64,000 bases of DNA from a virus: positions 1-64,000 of IMG/VR virus record IMGVR_UViG_3300037502_003155; one strand, written 5' to 3'. The translations under genes and the position numbers were made by a program. This document shows, one piece after another, positions 7,120 to 55,981 of the stretch. Below the pieces are notes generated by a model. The model searched no databases, had not been told where the DNA came from, and was given only the letters and a program-made list of their open reading frames with translations. Positions within the stretch are counted from its first letter, which is position 1. Each line of letters begins with the position of its first letter.

Positions 7120-9921
7120 TTAGAACTCCTCAAAGCCATAGTCTTTGAAGTTGTCGGGGTTTAGCCCGGTGTAGTCAGGCGGAGCGGATCCATTCTGGTG
7201 ATGACCATTGGTAGAACCATTCCCATTGGTGCTATGGGGTGGGGATTGATTTTGAGAGATAGGAATAGAGTGCTCTACTTCTCCATTATTTGATTGGTCA
7301 GTAAATCCATTTTCATTACTGACATACTCAAAACCCTTATTCCTCGTATCTTTCAGGGATGTATCAGGCGGTTGGTCAATCGATTGGTCAGCGTCAGTCA
7401 GTGGTTCACTGACCAATCGTAAGCCTTGATGTTCAGGGATTTGAGCGTCGTCAGTCAGTTGGTCAGTAGATTTTGAGCAATGATTTTCAAAAGCGTGGTA
7501 GGTCACGCGCTTGCGACCATTGCTGGTAATGGCCTCCCGAACCTCGCCCCAACCGTTGTCTGCAAGCTCATGGAAAAGGGTTAGACAGAATGCGGCGGGC
7601 TTCATCCCTTCGGCCCGTGCCATCTTGTCTACGCGGCTACCAGCGGGGCCACGGGCAACATCTCTGGGGGTAATGCCCTCGCCACTACAGCAGGCAACCT
7701 CTTGAATTTTGGCCAGGATGCCTTCAACGCCATCGGAAGCCGATGCCCCCATCAGGTAGTAGAAATGCCGTTGATAGTGCTGAGCCATGTGGTAGGCCCG
7801 CGCCATGGTGTCAGAGGTAAGCGTTTGGGTAGCCTTGCTGCGGTCGTAATAGCATTCGATGGCATGAATGGCCATCGCCAATCGCAGGGTGTGCCCAGGC
7901 AGCTTCAGGAGCCACGGTTCAACGTTTCCGCTAGGGGGCTTCTGGTTCAGAAAATCTTCGGCCACCTCGGTAAACAGATCATCGGCCTCTGTCGTGGGGG
8001 TGATGGTTCCCCAGTCCACAGAGTCAATGAATTGGTAGACCTTAGCCAATTCAACGGGTAGCACCGAGGCTCCCTTAAATCGCTTATAGGGAATACGTGC
8101 AGGCACTACGCACAGGCTGCGGCCCAACGTACCGTTAGCGTCTTCCTTGGTTTCAAAGATTTTGGAAAAGATCTTGAGTTGAATGCCGCCCGCTAGCGAC
8201 ATCCTGGACGACTCAACAGCAAAAGAACGATCTTCGTCGGCCCGATCAACCATGATGGCCCCACCGTCCCAGCTTTCCAAAAGCATTTCAGGGCCGTCGC
8301 TGTCTTTGCTGTACTGGGTTAGCCCCTTAAACAGCCCTGCCACCTCATCCCTCACCCACACCATGCCGTTGTTTTCCTGGTCGGCAAGGCGACGCACCAC
8401 GCCCTCAGGGGTACTTTGGGCGACCATCCACCGACGGCACTTGGGCTTTGGGTTTGGGGTGCTATCGTCGCTCTTGTCTTTGGCTTTTGCCTTTTCCTGC
8501 TGCGCCCAGTCGTCAACCCGGAGCTTCCAATTCTCAAACTCTTCAATGTTCCATTTTTCAATGGGGCGCATCACCAGGTTTTTTGCACGGCTTTTCCCGG
8601 TGCCAGAGTCCCCGATCAGAAGGCTCCAAGCGATATTAGGAACCCGGTAGCCCGACATATCTAGCCATGTGTCGCGCCCCATCATGCTCAGCGTGGCAGG
8701 GAGGAGGTAAGCCCAGATCGCCATCGGGTCGATGGAGTTGCGGGCGGCATCCGACCGCGCCATCTTCGCCAGTCGTTCCGGCAACCACAAGAACGGGTCA
8801 AAGCTACCGGGGCTAGTCATCGCCTGCCGGAACCGTGCCCATTCCTGGTCAGTGATCAGGGATTCTTCTGTGTCCTTTTCAGAAATATCATCTTTAGATT
8901 TTACTGACTGACTGACTGACGAGCCGGAATCCTTGCCCTGCCTAGTTTTGAGTTTGTCAGAATCCTCCTGACCAACGGTGACTGACTTACTGACCAATGG
9001 TGCCCAACCGTTCTTCTTAGCCAAGTACCCTAGGGTGCCAAGGCTACGCCCAGAACGCTCAAACCGTGCCCAGCGGTAGGCACAAGCCTTTGCGTCGTAA
9101 TTGGTAGCCCCCTTACTCCAGGACTCCCAATCTTCTAGCAAATCCGGGCTAACGCTGTGCAGCGCCATCCCCACATGCAGCCAGGTGTCATAGTCTGCGG
9201 TGGCAGGAATAGCTGCCAGGTATTCCCGCGCCCAGTCAATATCTGAATATCCCTTATAGGATTTCGCTGACTGACTGACTGACGAGCTAGCTGACGAACC
9301 CTGCCTAGACTTGGGTTCATCAGCCACGCTCTGACTAACTCTGACCGACTCGCTGACTTGCTGACTGACTAGCATTTGCTCAATCATCCACAGCGGAGCA
9401 GTGGTGATGGACTCAGCATCGTAAAGCCACTTGTAGCCAGCCGTAGCAGGGTGCGCCCCCATGACGATGCTTTGGCACCCATCCCAGCGAAACTCTAGCT
9501 GCTCAGGCTTGCCATCCTCGCCAAAAGCCCCGGTCGGCACCTTGTGAGTTTGGATGCCTCCCCAAAACATCTCAGGCACACGGTAAACATACTGCGCCCG
9601 ACCAGCGCGCCCGCTGGAAATCACCAAGGTTGATGGCAGGGCATTATCGACCGATTCCCCAGACAACTGCTCAATCAGCGCTGTGCAGCTAGGGCCATCA
9701 TGATCCACGAACAGCAAACCGCCCGACGGTGTGCCACAAAGAACACCCACGGCATGGCAGCGACTAGCCTTAACCTCTGCTCCAACCTGATCCTTATTCA
9801 GCGGATTTTTTTGCCAAGCCTTTTGATAGGGCTGTTTCTTCCGTCCACAGGCGACCAATCCCCACTGCTCAGGGAGTAGATCCAAATTGATAATGCCAGC
9901 CTTCAAGGTTTCGTTGTTCAT
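7120..9921 (-). CDS. PrimPol-PriCT-DUF3987 primase-helicase
   Basis: Replication protein of about 930 aa. N-terminal primase-polymerase domain (residues about 1-190, with VDHDG acidic motif), PriCT-2-like domain (about 225-310, DIDWAREYLAAIP...WLHVGMALH), then a DUF3987 helicase with Walker A GDSGTGKS near residue 432. ATG at 9921 is preferred over the frame extension to 9966. The linkers between domains and the C-terminal tail (about residues 200-220, 330-345, 815-855) are Ser/Gln/Thr-rich because they are encoded by GACT tetranucleotide repeats like those in the intergenic islands. Confidence 0.88.
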   Translation of the reverse strand: MNNETLKAGIINLDLLPEQWGLVACGRKKQPYQKAWQKNPLNKDQVGAEVKASRCHAVGVLCGTPSGGLLFVDHDGPSCTALIEQLSGESVDNALPSTLVISSGRAGRAQYVYRVPEMFWGGIQTHKVPTGAFGEDGKPEQLEFRWDGCQSIVMGAHPATAGYKWLYDAESITTAPLWMIEQMLVSQQVSESVRVSQSVADEPKSRQGSSASSSVSQSAKSYKGYSDIDWAREYLAAIPATADYDTWLHVGMALHSVSPDLLEDWESWSKGATNYDAKACAYRWARFERSGRSLGTLGYLAKKNGWAPLVSKSVTVGQEDSDKLKTRQGKDSGSSVSQSVKSKDDISEKDTEESLITDQEWARFRQAMTSPGSFDPFLWLPERLAKMARSDAARNSIDPMAIWAYLLPATLSMMGRDTWLDMSGYRVPNIAWSLLIGDSGTGKSRAKNLVMRPIEKWNIEEFENWKLRVDDWAQQEKAKAKDKSDDSTPNPKPKCRRWMVAQSTPEGVVRRLADQENNGMVWVRDEVAGLFKGLTQYSKDSDGPEMLLESWDGGAIMVDRADEDRSFAVESSRMSLAGGIQLKIFSKIFETKEDANGTLGRSLCVVPARIPYKRFKGASVLPVELAKVYQFIDSVDWGTITPTTEADDLFTEVAEDFLNQKPPSGNVEPWLLKLPGHTLRLAMAIHAIECYYDRSKATQTLTSDTMARAYHMAQHYQRHFYYLMGASASDGVEGILAKIQEVACCSGEGITPRDVARGPAGSRVDKMARAEGMKPAAFCLTLFHELADNGWGEVREAITSNGRKRVTYHAFENHCSKSTDQLTDDAQIPEHQGLRLVSEPLTDADQSIDQPPDTSLKDTRNKGFEYVSNENGFTDQSNNGEVEHSIPISQNQSPPHSTNGNGSTNGHHQNGSAPPDYTGLNPDNFKDYGFEEF

Positions 9922-9969
9922 GGCTACACCCCCTGAAAAGCTAGGGTTGCCACGAAATACAGGCAATTA

Positions 9970-19148: not shown

Positions 19149-19301
19149 TTAGTCATCTTCCAGAGTCTCCCAAGACAGCTTCTCAGCGTAAGCTTTGACT
19201 TGGGCCACGATACGCTTTGGGACTCGCATCGTGGTGAGAAGTTCACCTGGGGGGTAGGGTGAGTGGCCTCGCCCACCCCGGCTGTAGTCGCGGCCCTTTA
19301 T
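19149..19301 (-). CDS. Small cyanobacterial-type protein (start uncertain)
   Basis: The frame reads KGRDYSRGGRGHSPYPPGE then MRVPKRIVAQVKAYAEKL, a pattern I associate with short cyanobacterial proteins of unknown function. No ATG/GTG/TTG precedes GRDYSR in frame; an ATA at 19301, four bases inside the Csx3-like stop region, or the internal ATG at 19226 are the only options. May be a truncated or atypically started gene. Confidence 0.4.
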   Translation of the reverse strand: MKGRDYSRGGRGHSPYPPGELLTTMRVPKRIVAQVKAYAEKLSWETLEDD

Positions 19302-19603
19302 GCGGGCACTTTTGGGATTTCTACCACAGTCCCCACGGGGGGGGCGGTGCGGCTGTGGCGGGAAGTGACGACAGCACCGCCTAGACGAGGGTCGAAGGTG
19401 CCGACCCATTGAGTGGTGTGGTAATGATGGGCAAGGGCGGCGTAGAGCCACACAGGCCCACGTCCAGAGATGACTACGCCTTTGGTGCCGTCCACGTCGG
19501 GCGGGTTGAGGGTAGCAAGGTCTGCGGGTTCGCAGACCCCGCCGGGGATCTCGAACTCAAGCAGGGTCGCCCCTGCGAAGGGAGTGGTAGTGAACTGAAT
19601 CAT
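19298..19603 (-). CDS. Csx3/Crn3-type ring nuclease-like protein
   Basis: Csx3 (Crn3) proteins degrade cyclic tetra-adenylate, the alarm messenger of type III CRISPR systems. The 101-aa protein carries the family blocks: EFEIPGGVCEPADL, DVDGTKGVVISGRGPVWLY near residues 36-54, LAHHYHTTQWVGTFDPRLGGAVV near 56-80, and SRHS. The His pair and DPRLG, known to matter in Csx3, are present. ATG at 19603 has AGGAGG four bases upstream. No cas gene or array lies nearby, so it may act as a phage anti-CRISPR (inference). The AAA domain often fused to cyanobacterial Csx3 is absent. Confidence 0.85.
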   Translation of the reverse strand: MIQFTTTPFAGATLLEFEIPGGVCEPADLATLNPPDVDGTKGVVISGRGPVWLYAALAHHYHTTQWVGTFDPRLGGAVVTSRHSRTAPPVGTVVEIPKVPA

Positions 19604-19665
19604 GCTGCCTCCTTGGGCTGGTTGGGTGTGCAGGGCTTTACCTGCGGGGCTTGAGAGCGGTGACA

Positions 19666-20133
19666 TTAACGACGCTTGACGGGCCGGGGCTTGCCACTGG
19701 GGAGCGACTTGAACTCAGCCCCGACCCATTGGCCGAGTTCGTCCAGCACCCACTGAGGGATCGGGATAGGTTCCCCTTTGTAGGCCGCTTTTGTGCGACC
19801 CAAGGCAGGGTTCCGGCGGCGGATAAATCCGCGCTCCAGAGTTTTTTGGGTTTTGTCCTCAATGACCGCGACCATTTTCGCGGGTACGCGAAAATCTTTG
19901 TAAACATTTTCGTCAATAGACCATCTTTTCATGTCAATAAACAACCCGTCTTTGATTACCCGGGTTTTTACTTGGTCTACTTCAACCAGATCGGTTTTTT
20001 TGCCGATCCGGATAAAAGTTTCCCAGTCCTCTCGACTAGGAACGACGGTGCCCTCAGCAAAGAACCATTCTGGGCCCCCATCCGAGGTTCCAGGCATAAA
20101 CCCCCGGTAATGTCTCAACGCATCAGTTGCCAT
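19666..20133 (-). CDS. Hypothetical protein, 155 aa
   Basis: Upstream neighbour of the Csx3-like gene in the same direction. Residues 20-110 alternate strands and helices (FAEGTVVPSREDWETFIRIGKKTDLVEVDQVKTRVIKDGLFIDMKRW); C-terminus basic (KPRPVKRR). No family recognised; possible co-functioning with Csx3 is only positional. Confidence 0.6.
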   Translation of the reverse strand: MATDALRHYRGFMPGTSDGGPEWFFAEGTVVPSREDWETFIRIGKKTDLVEVDQVKTRVIKDGLFIDMKRWSIDENVYKDFRVPAKMVAVIEDKTQKTLERGFIRRRNPALGRTKAAYKGEPIPIPQWVLDELGQWVGAEFKSLPSGKPRPVKRR

Positions 20134-28320: not shown

Positions 28321-28925
28321 CCAGTCAGTAATTTACTGACTAACTGACAAAAGCCCAAAACCATTGAAGCGCAAAGGGTTTGGAGTTCTGTCAGCAACCC
28401 CAGTCAGTGAACTGTCAGCACCAGTCAGTAGAGCACTGACCAATAGAAATCCTTACGCAGCAAGGCTTTGAGGGGGACGAGTCAGTAAGTCAGTGAAATC
28501 CTTATATAGATATTTAAAATATCCCCCCCTAAAAGATCCCAAAAACTCTAATAGTTTTTGGCTCAACATCTCAATTTTTACTGACTTGCTGACTGGGATA
28601 CCTCAAACCCTTATATATCAAGGGTTTGCATTAGTCAGTGGCCTACTGACTTGTACTGACTGGCCTGCTGACAAATCCCCATACAAAATCTAGAAAGCTA
28701 TATACATCAATACTTTTAAGGATTATTCTATTCACTGACACTTACTGACTGGTCTACTGACAAATCCCCCTTTACTTCTCATTCCCATCACCATCAATAA
28801 ATAAATGGTTATCAGATCTATATACCTATAGCTATAGAAGGGCGTTGTATACGGTACACAATAAGGATTGATAGTGATGCCTCTGGTCAATGAGTTGGAC
28901 AGGGATTCACTGACTGACTGCCACG
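28321..28925. repeat. CAGTCAGT / TTATATATC repeat island 1
   Basis: About 600 bp of AT-rich non-coding DNA between the integrase and the RNR, packed with CAGTCAGT/CTGACTGA tetramers, stem-loops such as AACCCTTATATATCAAGGGTT (28606-28627), and a 36-bp block (28487-28522) identical to one in island 2 (47409-47444). A final CACTGACTGACTG lies at 28908-28920. No ORF is convincing here. Confidence 0.88.
28845..28861. promoter_or_regulatory. TTGTATAC-N-GTACACAA palindrome, copy 1
   Basis: TTGTATACGGTACACAA, an 8-1-8 inverted repeat with one mismatch, preceded by CTATATACCTATAGCTATAG. Upstream of the RNR gene; related copies lie at 47778 and 55398. Confidence 0.7.
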
Positions 28926-47235: not shown

Positions 47236-47702
47236 GAGTCAGTGTTCACTGACTGGCTGACAAAACGCCAGAACCGCCACCGCGCAAGGGTTTTGAGCAA
47301 CGTCAATAATCCCAGTCAGTGATTTGTCAGCGCCAGTCAGTACCAGTCAATAGCCTACTGACTGGCCAAAACCATTGATATACAAGGCTTTAGGGTACAC
47401 CAGTCAGCAAGTCAGTGAAATCCTTATATAGATATTTAAAATATTCCTCCCTGAAATGCCCTAAAGGATAAAAATGTACTACCTATAAAAATAATCGCGA
47501 TACCTCAATTTTCACTGACTTACTGACTCGTCCTACTCAAACCCTTGATATATAAGGTTTTTCACCAGTCAGAGCCTTACTGACTGACACTGACTGACAC
47601 TGACTGGTCTGCTGACAATTCTCCTAGAACCCTTGATATATAAGGCTTTCCATTAGTCAGTAGTTACTGACTGGTTTTACTGACTTGGATTATTGACTGA
47701 GA
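47236..47702. repeat. CAGTCAGT / TTGATATATAAGG repeat island 2
   Basis: Same architecture as island 1: CAGTCAGT tetramers, CCTTGATATATAAGG stem-loops at 47542-47556 and 47633-47645, and a 36-bp block identical to island 1. AT-rich DNA with no convincing ORF from 47177 to 47909. Confidence 0.88.
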
Positions 47703-47777
47703 TAGCTTCCCTCTAATCCAAAGATGGAAGTAAATATATCTACTAAGAGTTATTTATCTATATCTATAAAGAGCGCA

Positions 47778-47794
47778 TTGTATACAGTACACAG
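47778..47794. promoter_or_regulatory. TTGTATAC-N-GTACACA palindrome, copy 2
   Basis: TTGTATACAGTACACAG, preceded by TTATCTATATCTATAAAGAG. Same orientation as copy 1 relative to the repeat island. Confidence 0.7.
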
Positions 47795-47909
47795 TCAGTT
47801 TTCCGCAGATCGGCCAGTGGTGTTGGCGCTGACTGACTGGGCAGCAAAAAGCCCCACCGTGGGGCGGGGCTGGTCAGCGGGCTTTTGAGGGGCAGTGGTG
47901 CGGGCTGGG

Positions 47910-54827: not shown

Positions 54828-55271
54828 ATGCCACTAACCCGCGAAGAAGAATTAGGGATTATCAGAAACAAGTTGGTGCGACTCGGAATCCTCACCGATA
54901 CCGATACCGCCCACAACCTTGCACTCCTAGAAAGCCACCTGGTACGAGCATTGGCTGAGCACAATGAGAAGATCAACCCCTACGAACGGGTCGGCAAAAT
55001 CCTGCGCCACCATCGGGAACAACGCCTACAGATGCCTCGACACATTGCGGTAGCGAGGGCAAACCGTATCCTCCATTCATTGGGAGACCAAGGCATCTGT
55101 CATCAATCTGCCCTCTGCCACATGGAGGCAGGCACCCAGCGGATCTACTACCTCCAAGCCTTGGCCCTCGCTGATGTCTACGGCATTCCCTACGACGGTC
55201 TACTCCCCCCAGGCTACGACCCTGAGCTAGGACTGACGGATTGGGACGACGCCGCACCAGACCTAGGCTAG
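54828..55271 (+). CDS. XRE-like regulator, candidate master repressor
   Basis: 147 aa, divergently transcribed among the head genes. Residues 55-125 (VGKILRHHREQRLQMPRHIAVARANRILHSLGD, then CHMEAGTQRIYYLQALALADVYGIPYDGLLPP) match a helix-turn-helix of the XRE type with a C-terminal helical extension. GGGA directly precedes the ATG. Its promoter is covered by the 17-bp element found before most virion genes, so it probably represses or activates all of them. An alternative GTG at 54876 would shorten the N-terminus. Confidence 0.7.
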   Translation: MPLTREEELGIIRNKLVRLGILTDTDTAHNLALLESHLVRALAEHNEKINPYERVGKILRHHREQRLQMPRHIAVARANRILHSLGDQGICHQSALCHMEAGTQRIYYLQALALADVYGIPYDGLLPPGYDPELGLTDWDDAAPDLG

Positions 55272-55291
55272 GCAACACCACACGATGACAC

Positions 55292-55317
55292 AGCCCCGAC
55301 CAGGGGCTTTTCTTTTG
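55292..55317 (+). terminator. Terminator of the XRE gene
   Basis: AGCCCC GACCA GGGGCT followed by TTTCTTTTG. Confidence 0.8.
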
Positions 55318-55320
55318 CCT

Positions 55321-55963
55321 TGAGTCAGTCAGCACTGTCAGCACTGTCAGCAAAACCCTGACAGACCACCTTAACCCCGCAGTCCGTGGAAAACTCTTTG
55401 TGTACTGTATACAATCCCTCTATATATAGATATAGATAAATCTTCTAATAGATTTTTATTTATCTATCTCCATTGGTGGGGGTAGATTTAGGGGGATTTG
55501 TCAGTAAAAAAATAGTTTTGTCAGTGCCTAGTCAGTGAATTGTCAGTAAAGGTGTTTAAGAAAGAATCCTTATATATCAATGCTTTCAGGTTTTTGGTAG
55601 GGGATTTGTCAACAAGTCAGTGAATTTTGAGGGTTAGCGCAGAAAACTATAGAGGCCACAAAAATACCCCCTGAGGAAAACCTAGGGGGTGATGGAGGTA
55701 TCTAGTGCGTTTTTGAAATATACCCCTAGGTTTTTACTGACTTGCTGACTCGTCCTGCTCAAACCCTTGATATATAAGGATTCTTGGTACTGACTAGCCA
55801 CTGACTAATCACTGACTAGTCACTGACAAATCCCTTTTTTACTGACAAATCTCTTTTTGCTTTGAAGCGTGAAGCCCTTACAGTATAAGGTTTCTGGGCA
55901 ACGATGGGGATAAAGTTTGATGCGTTTTAGCCAAGTCAGCGTTTTACTGACACATCTCCTGGC
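55321..55963. repeat. CAGTCAGT / TTGATATATAAGG repeat island 3
   Basis: 640 bp of non-coding AT-rich DNA with CAGTCAG tetramers, CAAACCCTTGATATATAAGG (55760-55779) and a block (55731-55780) nearly identical to island 2. No convincing ORF. Confidence 0.88.
55398..55414. promoter_or_regulatory. TTGTRTAC-N-GTAYACAA palindrome, copy 3
   Basis: TTGTGTACTGTATACAA, inverted orientation relative to copies 1 and 2, followed by CTATATATAGATATAG. Lies at the left edge of island 3. Confidence 0.7.
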
Positions 55964-55981
55964 TGACTGGCAGCGCCCTCG

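Follow-up and report, generated by a model that had tools for sequence, protein, structure and literature searches.

In the SaPI and SCCmec elements the initiator helicases, which are sometimes fused to a primase, bind short iterons near their own gene through a C-terminal domain (PMC7581432), and in pRN1, an archaeal Prim-Pol plasmid, a stem-loop of ~100 bp near the rep gene is required for replication (PMC4234260). For a repABC plasmid the RepC origin has been established inside the rep coding sequence itself (PMC3155836), and in cyanobacteria CyRepA1, the primase-helicase Rep of pSYSA, is needed for replication of that plasmid (PMC9978351). Here we propose a model for a family of repeat islands in a phage whose primase has mostly cyanobacterial relatives, in which each island is probably an iteron-type replication-origin module that would be recognised by the phage's own primase-helicase, placed away from the gene for that protein and present in three copies. 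The primase-helicase combines Prim-Pol, PriCT_2 and DUF3987 parts, DUF3987 being a named family without an assigned function.

The 64,000-base stretch analysed here (the window) is the start of a 76,925-base (76.9-kb) virus record with a GC content of 55%. Its genes include those for an integrase, a B12-type ribonucleotide reductase (RNR), a dCTP deaminase-like protein, SSB, RusA, a major capsid protein and a terminase, a gene content that points to a temperate tailed phage. A Csx3/Crn3 ring nuclease is also encoded, at 19298-19666 (-) (Pfam E 1e-26, NCBIfam TIGR02579), and may help the phage to counter type III CRISPR signalling. Two related viral contigs, G001 (58 kb) and G002 (49 kb), carry primases with 72% and 67% identity to that of the phage, and a 9-kb contig that holds island 3 (L013) apparently comes from the same virus; scanning viral contigs with the integrase and capsid proteins, and searching genome contigs with the primase alignment, yielded no relatives. 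In G001 a TnpB-like transposon protein, judged as such by eye, is encoded at 8423-9715 (-) of L010.

Island 1 (28321-28925) is an inverted, iteron-like array of GTCAGT/ACTGAC boxes around an AT-rich centre, lying between the integrase and RNR genes. The sequence-only reading had described this stretch as non-coding, with many short repeat units, a palindrome, an AT-rich core and a 36-bp block common to a second island, and all of these elements were recovered. The stretch is bounded by the start of the integrase gene (28272, -) and the start of the RNR gene (28975, +) and contains no ORF of at least 100 aa. The boxes greatly exceed chance: the window holds 25 copies of CAGTCAGT, for which dinucleotide shuffles give an expectation of 1.65, and 93 copies of ACTGAC against 21.7. 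The palindrome AAACCCTTATATATCAAGGGTTT is located at 28605-28627, as a spacer stem that separates the outer from the inner box sets; the AT-rich centre, a candidate unwinding element, spans 28495-28580 at 29% GC, within an island of 41% GC in a phage of 55%; and the 36-bp block AAGTCAGTGAAATCCTTATATAGATATTTAAAATAT, in which an inner box continues into the AT-rich centre, is identical at 28487-28522 (+) and at 47409-47444 in island 2. What had been called arrays do consist of such boxes, which are not mainly tandem and instead form two mostly mirror-image sets of ~6-bp units, and the islands, though real, are better described as a three-member family whose boxes are also found within the primase gene.

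Alignment of the three repeat-rich stretches identifies three homologous ~600-bp modules in the genome, with island 2 (47237-47840) in the orientation of island 1 and island 3 (55310-55970), which lies between the ends of two convergent genes, inverted with respect to both. The order of elements in the module is outer boxes, a CCTTGATATATAAGG-type stem, inner pair, centre, reversed inner pair, stem and reversed outer boxes, and one end of the module bears a dyad of the form TTGTATACNGTACACA. GTCA[AG] boxes are present in multiple copies, as iterons are (22, 27 and 16 in islands 1-3), and form two convergent sets, with 17/22, 21/27 and 15/16 of them respectively concordant with the convergent layout. 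The halves are separated by a gap with a GC content of 29% in both island 1 and island 2, against 43% for island 3; an A+T-rich region that could unwind is present beside the boxes, weakly so in island 3. Both related phages carry one complete module each with the layout kept and 10/11 and 13/14 boxes concordant, the boxes themselves being variants (TGTCAGT or TCAGTCAG in G001, TGTCAGCA in G002), and in 5/5 phage islands the match of one arm to the other is far above that of shuffled arms. Searching phage and plasmid collections by blastn with island 1 returned nothing. Adjoining island 3 is an ORF of 147 aa (54828-55271, +), the C-terminal half of which appears helix-turn-helix-like by eye and which has no match in Pfam, PHROG or NCBIfam.

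All five phage islands fold as long hairpins with the dyad at the same end, and the folding energy has a z of about -8.5 on both strands, which would fit a structured non-coding RNA gene, with transcription from the flanking TTGTATAC dyad producing a long hairpin RNA of the island. We regard this as quite unlikely, since good folding is expected of any mirror-image box array whatever its role, and since one repeated box recurs in every arm, unlike a structured RNA. Rfam gave no match at the gathering threshold in the window. A strand-specific RNA was rejected, as wobble pairs are not significantly in excess on the putative RNA strand (52/76 against 45 expected) once base composition is corrected for (p = 0.10).

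The operator-like dyad, which reads TTGTATACGGTACACA on the margin of island 1 (28845-28860), takes the general form TTGTATACNGTRCACA and borders 5/5 phage islands, always at the same end (28845-28860, 47778-47793 and 55398-55414 in the phage, 8870-8965 of L015 and 6693-6790 of L019). This form is found in 9/60 genomes of one cyanobacterial order, with none for a reversed control, and the sites in those genomes lie, by eye, near genes for an FAD monooxygenase, ABC transporters and a Rieske-type protein, which makes the dyad a candidate operator of a host regulator; the dyad at the island edge may be such an operator. A search of 386 cyanobacterial genomes with a sequence model of the island edge gave only A+T-rich partial matches. 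Extending the regulatory role to the islands as a whole, as operator clusters for a phage repressor or activator, would account for an operator-like dyad at each island edge that also stands near several genes in genomes of a cyanobacterial order, but the islands are found in divergent, same-strand and convergent gene contexts and their box matches the primase gene, and we hold this to be the least probable of the readings considered.

The box is concentrated in the islands and in the primase-helicase gene (7120-9966, -). Counting both strands, GTCAG occurs at 33/kb in the islands, 10.5/kb in the primase gene and 1.8/kb elsewhere, where the 130 copies seen against 130 expected under a Markov model represent chance level, and the same three-way pattern of density is present in G001 and G002. 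Within the gene the boxes are located in the inter-domain linkers and the C-terminal tail, in clusters at 9267-9369 (the Prim-Pol/PriCT_2 linker, an insert absent from both related phages), at 8848-8994 (between the parts coding for PriCT_2 and DUF3987) and at 7297-7467 (the part coding for the C-terminal tail). Their codon phases and orientations vary, and the use of several codon phases by boxes in coding DNA indicates that the DNA, rather than the peptide, has been kept or gained. The islands and the primase gene carry the same boxes on the same replicon, and we infer that the primase-helicase is the cognate initiator of the island boxes.

Boxes inserted in the primase linkers, one insert being found only in this phage, and a module in multiple copies could also be the work of selfish palindromic repeats (REP/RPE-like) spreading in phage DNA, protein linkers included. 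Such an account is very improbable, as the boxes are limited to the islands and the primase gene, genomes of the host order are without the island, and plasmids keep the layout with different boxes, as described below, which is not expected from a copied repeat. Derivation of the repeats from a host was rejected, with 63 genomes of a cyanobacterial order devoid of the island by BLAST and a sole 27-bp match that looks like chance.

An iteron origin or a partition site had been the two suggestions of the sequence-only reading, of which the first is well backed by comparison, through the presence of the box in the phage's own primase gene and of the same mirror-image layout in plasmid rep genes, while the second found no support. 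Dispersed inverted-repeat arrays, one of them between convergent genes, would suit a plasmid-like prophage of the P1/N15 type, as its centromere or partition sites, but an integrase is encoded, neither ParA nor ParB was found among the subset of ORFs scanned against Pfam or PHROGs, and the boxes match the primase gene and not a partition operon, leaving partition with a very small share of the probability.

The most serious rival retains the same primase-helicase as the binding protein and assigns the islands to copy control or incompatibility, through titration or handcuffing, or to crr-like auxiliary sites, with the origin in or near the primase gene. Phage P4, which has a separate crr in addition to its origin, provides an analogy, and boxes common to the islands and the primase gene, together with several island copies far from that gene, would be in keeping with such a role. 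However, the fullest arrays are those of the islands, the most A+T-rich centres belong to two of the three islands, the array inside the phage primase gene is weaker than those of the islands, with only a weaker cluster at the 3' end of the gene, and the related phages keep one complete island each; we consider copy control unlikely. The islands are intergenic and in this depart from the plasmids described below, whose array occupies the 3' coding portion of rep.

By layout and context each island would be an iteron origin. In the origin model the primase-helicase would bind two mirror-image sets of (TT)GTCAGT boxes, binding would open the A+T-rich centre, and helicase and primase would then be loaded on both sides, leading to bidirectional replication. 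The boxes in the primase gene may represent a remnant, or a second site, of the plasmid arrangement with its array in the 3' part of the rep gene, whereas in the phage the full module stands between genes, in three copies. Protein binding, strand opening, origin activity and a function for all three copies are each inferred from these arrangements. Several observations count against the origin model: a 77-kb phage with three origins would be out of the ordinary; island 3, with its centre at 43% GC, shows that strong AT-richness is not general among the centres; and the CyRepA1 gene of pSYSA, which encodes an experimentally mapped Rep, albeit of a different family, is without such an array. The islands also show no break in GC skew, which the sequence-only reading had suggested as a check; this too was counted against an origin, and GC skew proved uninformative either way.

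A motif-blind scan for k-mer clusters, applied to cyanobacterial plasmids with homologous Prim-Pol/DUF3987 proteins, detected arrays inside the DUF3987 rep genes, and mixed-orientation arrays were then scored in fixed windows along each plasmid record. The best array of the record was within the rep gene in 7/13 records of the first batch (1.5 expected, P about 0.0003) and in 3/8 of the second (2.3 expected, P = 0.40), which did not replicate the first result. As the best-array statistic failed in the second batch, we rely on strong arrays, on their position in the gene, on the layout and on the last batch. With a strong array taken as one scoring at least 15, a cut-off chosen after the first two batches, those batches have seven records with a strong array in the rep gene and one, pANS, with a strong array elsewhere; the last batch, of seven records, contributes a further two, each with its strong array 84-85% of the way along the rep gene, and no record with one elsewhere, while at a looser cut-off of 10 the figures for this batch are three records in the rep gene and two elsewhere. 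The midpoint of the strong array falls at 82-87% of the rep gene in 9/9 cases, which are not independent, as several share a genus or strain (Planktothrix, Crinalium, Nostoc CENA543). One of the two arrays outside a rep gene at the looser cut-off is that of the Microcystis plasmid NZ_CP026286 (L095 1-215), with ten GGTGAC boxes in two opposed sets ~450 bases past the 3' end of the annotated DUF3987 gene. The array of pANS/pUH24 (L088 1930-2259) is very dense, with 16 copies of TGTTAA, and lies outside the CyRepA1 gene. In the Gloeocapsa plasmid pGLO7428.02, the record of which is listed as linear, an annotated protelomerase is found near the DUF3987 rep gene (L101 14003-16315).

When drawn to scale, the plasmid arrays resemble the phage islands: in both, a group of three to five boxes is followed, after a gap, by a pair, and the same elements recur in mirror image beyond the centre. 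Concordance of box orientation is mostly complete in the plasmids, with 14/14 to 18/18 in the best cases. The boxes themselves differ, being TTGTAGACA in Planktothrix, TGTCGG in one Nostoc, GTCCAC in Oscillatoria and AGTAGA or CAGTAG in Crinalium. In a Tolypothrix plasmid TTGTCTACGTAGACAA replaces the TTGTCAGTACTGACAA of Nostoc, with the same palindromic geometry. A geometry that stays constant while the sequence of the box changes is as expected of a DNA-binding initiator and its sites, in the manner of Rep-iteron pairs. Two other Nostoc plasmid rep genes use the phage box, TTGTCAGT/ACTGACAA, at sites that match the two places in the phage primase gene, the primase-helicase junction and the tail. 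The repeat units, which had at first seemed to fit no family, can in part be placed through this match. Our literature search, which had most subscription journals outside its coverage, found no description of arrays in DUF3987 rep genes.

Taken more widely, these observations allow for a widespread class of cyanobacterial plasmid and phage origins centred on DUF3987 Prim-Pol proteins, in which a symmetrical iteron array would occupy the 3' coding end of rep, with a box that co-varies with the Rep, and from which some phages would have freed and multiplied the module to give a three-origin genome; we give this generalisation somewhat less than an even chance. The comparison suggests a testable role for DUF3987, that of an origin-binding primase-helicase, and predicts the position of the origin, at 82-87% of the rep gene, for many cyanobacterial plasmids. 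Matched pairs of Rep and box are possible vectors for cyanobacteria, where replicons are few, and a phage with three intergenic copies would offer a system for studying how several origins are coordinated on one small genome.

Set beside the known systems, SaPI and SCCmec differ from the phage in their helicase, which is of the DUF927 or D5 type there and DUF3987 here, and in the position of the origin, which is directly downstream of rep, whereas DUF3987 arrays are inside rep or far from it. pRN1 shares a Prim-Pol initiator with the phage, but has a stem-loop in place of a box array and an SF3 helicase. The RepC origin of repABC plasmids, in comparison with the phage and the DUF3987 plasmids, has an unrelated initiator and consists of an A+T-rich stretch without iterons. 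The CyRepA1 plasmids pSYSA and pANS resemble the phage in having cyanobacterial primase-helicase Rep proteins, and the Rep of pANS matches the phage primase over its N-terminal third; the phage primase has no NCBIfam match, the CyRepA1 model included, which the pSYSA and pANS proteins do match, and the rep genes of these plasmids are without a strong array, unlike those of DUF3987 plasmids. The rep arrays of the DUF3987 plasmids (NZ_LR882946, NC_019737, NC_019755 and NZ_CP046714 among them) have in common with the phage both a homologous Rep and the mirror-image layout of outer set and inner pair, and differ in that the plasmid array is inside the rep gene, whereas the modules of the phage are complete, stand between genes and number three in the genome.
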